Of a stretch of DNA of 39,358 nt, positions 19,393-39,142 are shown piece after piece. How positions within the stretch are numbered: position 1 is the first letter of the stretch; each line of letters begins with the position of its first letter. Source of the DNA: Flavobacteriaceae bacterium TMED179 (GTDB lineage Bacteria; Bacteroidota; Bacteroidia; Flavobacteriales; Flavobacteriaceae). Under the pieces are notes generated by a model. The model was given only the letters and a program-made list of their open reading frames with translations, searched no databases and was not told where the DNA came from. The position numbers and the translations under genes are program-made. The DNA lies in NCBI GenBank assembly GCA_002169865.1, contig NHIC01000006.1, positions 100,967 to 140,324 of the forward strand, given 5' to 3'.

Positions 19393-19465
19393 CACGGGTT
19401 GAGAGGCTCGAACTCCCGACACCTGGTTTTGGAGACCAGTGCTCTACCAACTGAGCTAAACCCGT
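19393..19465 (-). tRNA. tRNA-Trp (anticodon CCA)
   Basis: Minus strand ACGGGTT-TAGCTCAGTTGGTAGAGCA-CTGGTCTCCAAAACCAG-GTGTC-GGGAGTTCGAGCCTCTC-AACCCGT-G; complete cloverleaf. Confidence 0.97.
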
Positions 19466-30325: not shown

Positions 30326-30397
30326 AGCCAATGACGAGATTTGAACTCGTGACCTCTTCCTTACCAAGGAAACGCTCTACCCCTGAGCTACATCGGC
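30326..30397 (-). tRNA. tRNA-Thr (anticodon GGU)
   Basis: Minus strand GCCGATG...TTTCC-TTGGTAA-GGAAG...GTTCAAATC...CATTGGC; cloverleaf complete. Confidence 0.95.
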
Positions 30398-30411
30398 AAT
30401 TAAAAAAGAAG

Positions 30412-30484
30412 AGCGAGAGACCGGGTTCGAACCGGCGACATTCAGCTTGGAAGGCTGACGCTCTACCAACTGAGCTACTCTCGC
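30412..30484 (-). tRNA. tRNA-Gly (anticodon UCC)
   Basis: Minus strand GCGAGAG...TCAGC-CTTCCAA-GCTGA...GGTTCGAACC...CTCTCGC. Confidence 0.96.
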
Positions 30485-30546
30485 ATTTAAGGGAAAATTT
30501 AATGTTGATATGAGTAAATATAAAACATTTTATAAATACAAAATTG

Positions 30547-30628
30547 TGGGGAGAGCAGGATTCGAACCTGCGAAGTTAAAAACAACAGATTTACAGTCTG
30601 CCCTCGTTGGCCGCTTGAGTATCTCCCC
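30547..30628 (-). tRNA. tRNA-Tyr (anticodon GUA)
   Basis: Minus strand GGGGAGA...CAGACTGTAAATCTG...long variable arm...GGTTCGAATCC...TCTCCCC-A; class II tRNA. Confidence 0.96.
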
Positions 30629-30663
30629 AGTTTCAATGAACGATTTAAAAAAATAATTTTAAG

Positions 30664-30737
30664 AGCCGATGGAGGGACTCGAACCCACGACCTGCTGATT
30701 ACAAATCAGCTGCTCTAGCCAGCTGAGCTACATCGGC
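30664..30737 (-). tRNA. tRNA-Thr (anticodon UGU)
   Basis: Minus strand GCCGATG...GCTGA-TTTGTAA-TCAGC...GGTTCGAGTCC...CATCGGC. Confidence 0.96.
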
Positions 30738-36389: not shown

Positions 36390-36953
36390 ATGAAAATTAG
36401 AAAAGTTCTATTTATGCTTTTGATTTCAATTAGCATGACTTTAAAAAGCCAAGAAAAAAATATTGATATAATTACAAGTAATATTATATGGACTGGAAAA
36501 GAAATTACTACTAAAATCCATTTTGGATCTCTAAAATTCAAAAAAGGAAATATCTCAATTGATAATGGTTTAATAACTGCTGGTGAATTTATTGTGGACA
36601 TGCAAACCCTTGAAAATCATGATTTGAGCGGTGGATCTAAAAGTTATCTTGAAAAGCATTTACGTTCAGATGATTTTTTTTCTGTTGAAAAATATCCGAC
36701 AGCTAGTTTAAAAGTCATTTCTTCAGAAAAAGTTACTCCGGAGAAACTCTCAGTTTTAGGAGAACTTACAATAAAAGGTATAACTAATAATATAAATTTT
36801 GATCTTTTGTTCAAAGAAGAAGGTGCAATTGCAGAACTTATTTTTGATAGGTCCAAATACAACATAAAATTTCGTTCTTCTACGTTTTTCGATGAATTAG
36901 GTGATAAATTAATTTACGATGATATTGAGCTTAAGGTAGATTTAGTATTTTAA
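36390..36953 (+). CDS. YceI family protein, secreted
   Basis: Signal peptide; IIWTGKEITTKIHFGSLKFKKGNISIDNGLITAGEFIVDMQTLENHDL...LEKHLRSDDFFSVEKYPTASLKV...LGELTIKGITNNINFDL. Confidence 0.9.
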   Translation: MKIRKVLFMLLISISMTLKSQEKNIDIITSNIIWTGKEITTKIHFGSLKFKKGNISIDNGLITAGEFIVDMQTLENHDLSGGSKSYLEKHLRSDDFFSVEKYPTASLKVISSEKVTPEKLSVLGELTIKGITNNINFDLLFKEEGAIAELIFDRSKYNIKFRSSTFFDELGDKLIYDDIELKVDLVF

Positions 36954-37038
36954 CTTACTTTATTAAAACTTTATATTTTAAAATTTTAGCAGACCATTAA
37001 ATTGTTTAAATCTGAGCAAAGAGTTGTAAATTTTATAT

Positions 37039-37046
37039 TATATTTG
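37039..37046 (+). promoter_or_regulatory. Candidate -7 box of the trp operon
   Basis: TATATTTG 5 nt before the ATG of the candidate leader peptide; no -33 TTG at the expected distance. Confidence 0.4.
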
Positions 37047-37051
37047 AACTT

Positions 37052-37099
37052 ATGAAATTATTAATTACATCTAACAACTGGTGGCATTCGATTCAATAG
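37052..37099 (+). CDS. trpL: Candidate trp leader peptide MKLLITSNNWWHSIQ
   Basis: 15-codon ORF with tandem TGG TGG (37079-37084) between the operon promoter region and a terminator hairpin preceding trpE. Confidence 0.75.
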   Translation: MKLLITSNNWWHSIQ

Positions 37100-37133
37100 A
37101 GATTCGCGTGAAAACAATTGTAATAAAATATCT

Positions 37134-37161
37134 AGGCTTGTCATCACGACAGGCCTTTTTT
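37134..37161 (+). terminator. Trp operon attenuator terminator
   Basis: AGGCTTGTC-ATCAC-GACAGGCCT-TTTTT: 9-bp stem (one G.U) and U-tract, ending 5 nt before the trpE ATG. Confidence 0.8.
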
Positions 37162-37166
37162 AATTT

Positions 37167-38576
37167 ATGTCAAAAATAAAAACATTTAGCCTTAAAACTA
37201 AGCATAAGAAAATACTTGCAGATACTATTACACCAGTAAGTGTATATTTAAAATTAAGGGATGTATTTCCACATTCTTTACTTTTAGAGAGCAGTGATTA
37301 TCACGCAAATAAAAATGACTTTTCATATATCTGTTGTAACCCTATTGCTTACATTGAACTTAAAAATAATAAACTCACAACACAATTACCAGATAATAGC
37401 TCAAAAGTGGAAAAAGTTGATTTTCAAATTGATATTCCTGAACGGATCCATCAATTTTCGAAGCATTTTGATAGCGAAAATTCTCCATTTAAATTTTTAA
37501 GTAATGGGATTTTTGGTTATGTAGCACATGATGCCGTAGAGCGTTTCGAAAACATTGAACTTAATAAAAATAAACCGGGACAAGATATTCCAGATTTATA
37601 TTATGCTGTTTATCAAAATATTATTGCCATTAGTCTTTTTAATCATGAAGCTCACCTGTTTTCAAATATATATGACGGCAATCACAATCTTAATGAAATA
37701 GAACTTTTACTCCAAGCCAAAAATAACTGTAATTTTACTTTTGAAAAAGTAGGAGAAAAATCATCTAACCTTAGCGATGAAGAATTCATTGATTTTGTTA
37801 AAAAGGGGAAGGAGCATTGTTATAGGGGTGATGTTTTTCAGCTAGTGCTTTCTAGAAGCTTTTCTCAAGGTTTTAAAGGAGACGAATTTAATGTTTATAG
37901 AACCTTGAGGTCTATCAACCCTTCGCCATATTTGTTTTTCTTTGACTATGGTAATTTTAAAATTTTTGGAAGTTCACCAGAAGCTCAACTTATAGTCCAA
38001 AATGGTAAAGCAGAAATTCACCCAATTGCTGGTACTTTCCGACGTACAGGAAATGATGAAAAAGATGCAAAAGCTGCTGAGGAATTGGCAAAAGATCCAA
38101 AAGAAAATAGTGAACATGTGATGCTTGTCGATTTGGCTAGAAACGATTTAAGTCGCAATGGATCAGAAGTTATCGTTGAAAAAAACAGGGAAATTCAATT
38201 TTACTCACATGTCATCCACTTAGTTTCAAAAGTAAGTTGTAACATGAAGAAATCAACTAAAACGTTCCGTGTAGTAGCAGATACTTTTCCAGCAGGAACA
38301 TTAAGTGGTGCACCTAAACACAAGGCTTTGCAATTAATTGATCGTTATGAAACTACAAAACGTAATTTCTATGGAGGAGCAATAGGTTATATGGATTTTC
38401 ATGGGAATTTCAATCATGCAATAATTATTCGTTCATTTCTAAGCAAGGACCATAAATTACATTACCAAGCAGGAGCAGGAATTATTGCTGATTCAGTTCC
38501 AAAAAATGAATTACAAGAAGTTTATAATAAATTAGGTGCTTTAGATAAAGCCTTAACACTTGCAGAGAGAGTTTAA
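37167..38576 (+). CDS. trpE: Anthranilate synthase component I
   Basis: LLLESSDYHANKND (feedback-site LLES); DVFQLVLSRSF...RSINPSPYLFFFDYGNFKIFGSSPEAQLIV...IHPIAGTFRRTGND...ENSEHVMLVDLARNDLSR...FPAGTLSGAPKHKALQLID. Confidence 0.95.
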   Translation: MSKIKTFSLKTKHKKILADTITPVSVYLKLRDVFPHSLLLESSDYHANKNDFSYICCNPIAYIELKNNKLTTQLPDNSSKVEKVDFQIDIPERIHQFSKHFDSENSPFKFLSNGIFGYVAHDAVERFENIELNKNKPGQDIPDLYYAVYQNIIAISLFNHEAHLFSNIYDGNHNLNEIELLLQAKNNCNFTFEKVGEKSSNLSDEEFIDFVKKGKEHCYRGDVFQLVLSRSFSQGFKGDEFNVYRTLRSINPSPYLFFFDYGNFKIFGSSPEAQLIVQNGKAEIHPIAGTFRRTGNDEKDAKAAEELAKDPKENSEHVMLVDLARNDLSRNGSEVIVEKNREIQFYSHVIHLVSKVSCNMKKSTKTFRVVADTFPAGTLSGAPKHKALQLIDRYETTKRNFYGGAIGYMDFHGNFNHAIIIRSFLSKDHKLHYQAGAGIIADSVPKNELQEVYNKLGALDKALTLAERV

Positions 38577-38578
38577 TT

Positions 38579-39142
38579 ATGAAAAAAATATTTGTTATCG
38601 ATAATTATGATTCTTTTACATATAATCTAGTTCATTATCTAGAAGAAATGAATTGTGAGGTTACGGTAAAACGTAATGACAAATTTGACCTTGAGGAGCT
38701 TGATAATTACCCGCTAATATTATTATCTCCTGGCCCCGGAATTCCTGATGAATCGGGTTTATTGAAAACAGCAATTAAACGTTATTCACCGTTTAAGAAA
38801 ATCTTAGGTGTTTGTTTAGGGCAACAAGCCATTGGAGAAGTTTTTGGTGCTAGATTAGTCAACTTAGATAAAGTTTATCATGGTATTGCAACCCCTGTAA
38901 ATGTTATTAAAAAAGATATATTATTTAAAGGTCTCCCTAATGCTTTCAATGTTGGCCGCTATCATTCCTGGGTAGTTGAAACCCCCCTTCCTAAAGAGCT
39001 TATTGCCACCTCAATTGACCAACAAGGACATTTAATGTCACTACGTCACAAAACATATAATGTTTGCGGGGTTCAATTTCATCCAGAATCGATACTAACC
39101 AGTTATGGAAAAAAAATATTAAATAACTGGATAAATAGTTAA
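38579..39142 (+). CDS. trpG: Anthranilate synthase component II (glutamine amidotransferase)
   Basis: FVIDNYDSFTYNLVHYLEE...LLSPGPGIPDESG...ILGVCLGQQAIGEVFGARLVN...GVQFHPESILT. Confidence 0.94.
   Translation: MKKIFVIDNYDSFTYNLVHYLEEMNCEVTVKRNDKFDLEELDNYPLILLSPGPGIPDESGLLKTAIKRYSPFKKILGVCLGQQAIGEVFGARLVNLDKVYHGIATPVNVIKKDILFKGLPNAFNVGRYHSWVVETPLPKELIATSIDQQGHLMSLRHKTYNVCGVQFHPESILTSYGKKILNNWINS

Follow-up and report, generated by a model that had tools for sequence, protein, structure and literature searches.

How transcription enters the trp operon of Flavobacteriaceae bacterium TMED179, and where the transcript begins, is the question raised by the short region between a YceI-like gene and trpE. 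The original prediction, made on a 39,358-nucleotide stretch of contig NHIC01000006.1 (here called the window, to which all positions refer), had read this region as a classical ribosome-mediated trp attenuator, possibly with a leaderless leader peptide. The coordinates that it gave for the ORF, TGGTGG, the terminator, the promoter box and CGTGA/TCACG were all found to be correct when the sequence was re-read base by base (Table 1). As described below, the trp operon is very probably controlled by a ribosome-mediated transcription attenuator of the classical type, which is a divergent member of Bacteroid-trp (RF01692) and has a leader ORF predicted to be leaderless.

Table 1. Features of the trp leader region and its neighbours in the window
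Feature	Positions	Strand	Basis or remark
YceI-like gene	36390-36953	+	upstream neighbour of trp leader region
Rfam RF01692 Bacteroid-trp sub-threshold match, 26.2 bits	37032-37142	+	
TATATTTG, -7 promoter box (TAnnTTTG, Bacteroidota primary sigma factor)	37039-37046	+	sequence; same-genus conservation
Leader peptide ORF MKLLITSNNWWHSIQ, 15 codons, predicted leaderless	37052-37099	+	ATG 37052-37054, TAG 37097-37099
Tandem Trp codons TGGTGG, predicted ribosome stall site	37079-37084	+	WW/WWW conserved in relatives
1:2 (protector) hairpin	37085-37110	+	MFE fold; relatives' hairpins; Rfam consensus helix
Antiterminator 5' strand CGUGA-AA-ACAA	37107-37117	+	covaries with terminator loop across families
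CGTGA element	37107-37111	+	sequence re-read
Intrinsic terminator AGGCUUGUC-AUCAC-GACAGGCCU-UUUUU	37134-37161	+	sequence, fold, terminator scan; near-invariant in genus
Antiterminator 3' strand UUGU-CA-UCACG	37138-37148	+	covariation; stepwise folds
TCACG, partner of CGTGA	37144-37148	+	sequence re-read
trpE (anthranilate synthase component I), first regulated gene	37167-38576	+	
trpG (anthranilate synthase glutamine amidotransferase component)	38579-39142	+	ORF, sequence, position directly after trpE

The original prediction had proposed that its reading be checked against the trpE upstream regions of relatives. Matches to trpE were found in 96 of 100 genomes (E ≤ 0.001; some are paralogues), and the closest named relatives of the protein come from marine Flavobacteriaceae MAGs and single-cell genomes, including Candidatus Arcticimaribacter. 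Of 33 trpE upstream regions examined from the same genus, 32 carry a tandem-Trp leader, the exception being L026, which has CW instead, and the terminator was present in all 33. Most other Flavobacteriaceae also have a tandem-Trp leader before trpE, usually WWW. The residues flanking the Trp codons drift, so that what is conserved is the Trp codons and not the peptide. Among the 494 short ORFs (8 to 30 codons) of the window, none but the trp leader ORF contains WW. The conservation of the WW leader, the terminator, CGTGA and the promoter box in relatives supports the reading of the region as a ribosome-mediated attenuator.

Some of the relatives' leaders differ in form. In L056 and L058 (family f2, genus g25), two WWW leaders succeed each other before trpE, e.g., MQKINTIWWWQSKL and then MLNNKINNWWWPVLTQYAGQSCYNII, and RF01692 matches are paired in tandem upstream of trpE; this may be a double attenuator. 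The trp leaders of L053 to L055 and L060 (family f5) share a long C-terminal tail that is conserved, LSNSSSGLK.LSC. With a box 4 nt ahead of the first ATG, they appear to be a leaderless form of independent origin.

Bacteroid-trp was listed as a cis-regulatory candidate by Weinberg et al. (2010), in the main text of which (PMC2864571) it appears as a table entry only. At Rfam gathering thresholds, nothing except tRNAs was found in the whole window; the window carries a cluster of four tRNA genes at 30326-30737 on the - strand and a fifth tRNA gene at 19393-19465. In a permissive scan, the trp locus itself scored 26.2 bits against RF01692, below the gathering score of 49 bits. This was the single RF01692 match in the whole genome, and it lies directly before trpE, as expected for a family located ahead of trp genes in Bacteroidota. 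The alignment runs from end to end of the model (positions 1 to 131) with AUG, UGGUGG and AGGCUUGUC in register, so that the short ORF with its consecutive UGG codons is aligned to the AUG and UGGuGG of the model. The long hairpin of the family, which includes the Trp codons, has a related hairpin as its counterpart in the MFE structure; in the alignment to the model, several consensus pairs are non-standard, and the z score in the genus is weak. The best same-genus member reached 43.7 bits, and members in other genera of the family, at the corresponding position before trpE, scored 50 to 65 bits. Among the 100 relatives searched, 53 genomes had a match at E ≤ 1 and 15 had one above the cut-off; the matches in the family's other genera are mostly just upstream of trpE. 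On the basis of position, anatomy and descent, the locus is regarded as a divergent Bacteroid-trp member with a score below the formal threshold.

Folding of positions 37047-37167, a further check that the original prediction had suggested, gave -23.8 kcal/mol (z, -2.96), which was lower than in 200 of 200 shuffles. The terminator has a stem of 9 bp including one G-U pair (37134-37142 with 37148-37156), the loop ATCAC (37143-37147) and a T run to 37161, and thus stands between the leader ORF and the first structural gene, ending 5 nt before the trpE ATG at 37167. A terminator scan of the surrounding 1.1 kb returned one site, with 0.3 expected. The trpE ATG is only 10 nt past the terminator stem (window positions 37134-37169), so the hairpin could also impede the start of translation on read-through mRNA. 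Upstream of the terminator, the MFE fold contains the 1:2 hairpin, in which CAU.UCG.., immediately following the Trp codons, is paired to ..UCG.GUG, so that the antiterminator strand is sequestered. When relatives' leaders were folded without a ribosome, the antiterminator element was for the most part contained in the 3' strand of a hairpin whose 5' strand is near the Trp codons, both in the genus and outside it. The 1:2 hairpin was only modestly more stable than shuffled sequences (mean z, -1.0 in the genus and -1.7 elsewhere).

The pairing of CGTGA with TCACG had been put forward as a candidate antiterminator. The same-genus pair is mostly TCGTGA:TCACGA, in which TCACGA is formed by the terminator loop together with the bases that open the 3' arm, and this near-uniformity makes a covariation test within the genus impossible. 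Covariation was scored across Flavobacteriales as the best pairing between leader region and loop region, with one locus for each of 18 distinct terminator classes, some of them from related genomes; at six loci where the automatic caller failed, the hairpin was assigned manually, and one locus was omitted. The sum for matched pairs was 258.0 versus 200.9 ± 11.0 when terminators were swapped between classes, and none of 20,000 such permutations scored as high. Pairs that changed together were TCGCGA/TCGCGA (L048), GAGAAGC/GCTTCTC (L051 and L062), GTGAGA/TCTCAC (L057), TGTGGG/CCCACA (L058) and GCGAG/CTCGC (L066). The covariation across the 18 classes thus backs the candidate pairing, and the permutation together with the stepwise folds described below indicates that antiterminator and terminator are mutually exclusive. 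Among genus loci with the standard element, the antiterminator element starts 20 to 22 nt past the last Trp codon, whereas the leader stop ends 15, 18 or 27 nt past it; a constant distance from Trp codons to element with a moving stop fits selection on the distance from stall site to antiterminator. The loop pairing is absent from the Rfam RF01692 model because the model stops at the 5' arm of the terminator.

The sequence parts, their conservation and the covariation of the antiterminator are the observed basis of the following proposed switch. Transcription would start at the leader AUG or one base before it, and the ribosome would initiate on the 5'-terminal AUG. The dependence on Trp would then lie in where the ribosome halts and in the order of folding. 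With Trp-tRNA scarce, a ribosome stalled on the tandem UGG codons would mask the 5' side of the 1:2 hairpin and leave CGUGA...ACAA free, and this strand could pair with UUGU..UCACG once the terminator loop has been transcribed and before the 3' arm is complete. An antiterminator formed first would pre-empt the terminator, and trpE would be read. With plentiful Trp, the ribosome would reach the UAG (37097-37099) and mask the CGU of CGUGA, and the terminator would form 5 nt before trpE.

The RNA was also folded stepwise with ribosome-hidden segments, for which the edges of the footprint were assumed. When the ribosome was placed on UGG and the RNA ended at 37149-37151, the optimum was CGUGA:UCACG plus ACAA:UUGU at -7.4 kcal/mol; when it was placed on the stop codon, the antiterminator was lost and the terminator formed. 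On the complete RNA, the terminator (-14.0 kcal/mol) always beat the antiterminator (-7.4 kcal/mol). Since the terminator is the more stable at equilibrium in these folds, antitermination would have to be kinetic, winning by earlier formation. The 3' strand of the antiterminator, composed of the terminator 5' arm, the loop and the first base of the 3' arm, is synthesized ahead of the terminator 3' arm.

A hairpin shaped like a terminator behind a YceI-like gene of the same orientation, whose end is at 36953, might instead be the 3' terminator of that gene, the WW ORF being incidental. This was rejected as extremely improbable from the promoter position and the conservation: a promoter box and the leader intervene between the YceI-like gene and the hairpin, and across families the Trp codons are retained jointly with the antiterminator and the terminator, with constant spacing and covariation. 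A terminator right before trpE would equally fit systems that sense Trp without translation, such as a T-box, a TRAP-type system or a direct-binding riboswitch. The tandem Trp codons are kept while the rest of the peptide drifts, which speaks against such sensing, and no T-box or riboswitch match was found in the window or in a permissive Rfam scan of 36950-37300. With no support from Rfam, these systems were rejected and are considered very unlikely.

For the ribosome-mediated attenuator, a separate matter is where its transcript starts. The TATATTTG box lies exactly 5 nt before the leader ATG, and each of the 33 same-genus loci has a TAnnTTTG box 4 to 6 nt ahead of its leader ATG. The main text of PMC9723704 places the TAnnTTTG box of Flavobacterium psychrophilum at -12 to -5, and in Flavobacterium johnsoniae the transcription start site (TSS) is 4 to 5 nt after the box. 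The conserved box and the TSS spacing published for these two species lead to a predicted +1 at 37051 or 37052, i.e., the A of the leader ATG or one base before, and the same-genus box spacing predicts a 5' UTR of 0 to 2 nt. The leaderless start suggested by the original prediction therefore gains support from both the box gap in the genus and the published spacing. The same attenuator might still be leadered, with a start further upstream and the TATATTTG box fortuitous or a secondary start. Many Flavobacterium species have the box 14 to 24 nt before the ATG, which means that leadered versions of the attenuator exist; moreover, this window lacks a TTG at the usual distance (-33), and the leaderless start at this locus is a predicted one. 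However, the 4- to 6-nt spacing is kept in every same-genus locus even though the bases between box and ATG vary, TAnnTTTG occurs rarely in the window (0.72 per kb per strand), and a similarly short spacing recurs at the his leader of the genus. A leadered transcript at this locus thus seems unlikely.

The leaderless arrangement predicted here was followed over a wider set of trpE loci. A box was located within 26 nt of the leader ATG in 115 of 136 loci, and the gap was bimodal, with 63 loci at 4 to 6 nt, 10 at 7 to 11 nt (including L283, counted at 9, for which 18 is the better reading), none at 12 to 13 nt and 42 at 14 to 24 nt. A trpE tree (FastTree; many forks are weak) suggests approximately 6 to 7 changes between short- and long-gap forms. 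By box spacing, all 48 loci of one marine clade are leaderless except one in which no leader and box were recognised. For ordinary genes whose last 60 nt contain a box, the gap was 2 to 8 nt in 12 of 39 (G001) and 6 of 40 (G031) cases in the same genus and in 8 of 54 cases in another genus (G051). The idea that leaderless starts are peculiar to the genomes of this genus was rejected, as they are only weakly so. By box spacing, leaderless starts are a minority among the ordinary genes of both genera, which makes the trp/his arrangement unusual, not unique. Leaderless mRNAs are given as 5.5% of mRNAs in F. psychrophilum in the main text of PMC9723704; 5' UTRs of <10 nt account for ∼3.7% in Bacteroides thetaiotaomicron, and those of ≤10 nt account for 13% in F. 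johnsoniae.

In the same genus, hisG of the his operon is preceded by a His-rich leader at 29 of 30 loci, as judged by a script filter, with a TAnnTTTG box 5 to 8 nt before the ATG. These leader ORFs (L071 to L100) lie ∼60 to 200 nt upstream of hisG, e.g., MKLLRHHTHLIINYSNDM; a CTCAAACG element is located near the leader end, and a terminator arm, CGTTTGAG, is complementary to it. Rfam returned no match on five his loci, and no convincing leader was found before ilvD in the genus.

Proteobacterial trp attenuators of the Escherichia coli trpL type have a leader peptide with Trp codons, mutually exclusive protector, antiterminator and terminator structures, and a logic that depends on ribosome stalling. 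The trp locus described here shares the Trp leader peptide, the three structures and the stall logic. It differs in that the E. coli leader is led by a Shine-Dalgarno sequence, which this locus does without, and in that the partner of its antiterminator is largely the terminator loop plus the beginning of the 3' arm, whereas the antiterminator of the E. coli type pairs mainly with the 5' arm. With Bacteroid-trp, it shares the site upstream of trpE, the AUG, the tandem UGG and the 5' terminator arm AGGCUUGUC, and a related hairpin runs on from the Trp codons; the loop pairing and the leaderless arrangement are outside the RF01692 entry, as far as its available part goes. In Sinorhizobium meliloti, the transcript of the trp attenuator (trpL, rnTrpL) begins at the leader ORF ATG. 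Thus, a leaderless leader peptide in a trp attenuator, as predicted here, has a precedent, although in another phylum, with a different sequence and promoter and with a start that is mapped there and predicted here. There are strong clues for leader-peptide attenuation before amino acid operons in F. psychrophilum, which has the same TAnnTTTG promoter type as this locus; no mention of trp was found in the main text of that paper (PMC9723704). The interpretation given in the original prediction was largely right; it had lacked the RF01692 membership and the leaderless precedent in Sinorhizobium.

The kind of system (a trp attenuator), a catalogued Bacteroidota family and a leaderless trp leader in S. 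meliloti are thus already known. As far as the literature found shows, the covariation-backed antiterminator, a divergent branch missed by the Rfam threshold and the conserved, repeatedly changed predicted leaderless start are new. The predicted start of the sensor ORF at the first base is kept in dozens of relatives. It appears likely that leaders read from the first base are a standing architecture of trp and his attenuators in marine Flavobacteriaceae, repeatedly gained and lost, in which an antiterminator strand near the leader stop pairs into the terminator loop, in a phylum without Shine-Dalgarno. Attenuation relies on the relative timing of ribosome and polymerase, and loading on a 5'-terminal AUG may therefore tighten their coupling. 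Bacteroid-trp, in the literature found an Rfam name without a worked-out switch, now has a proposal for a full mechanism with a covariation-supported antiterminator. The predicted leaderless clade and its leadered neighbours would offer matched natural leaders as a system for initiation without Shine-Dalgarno in Bacteroidota.
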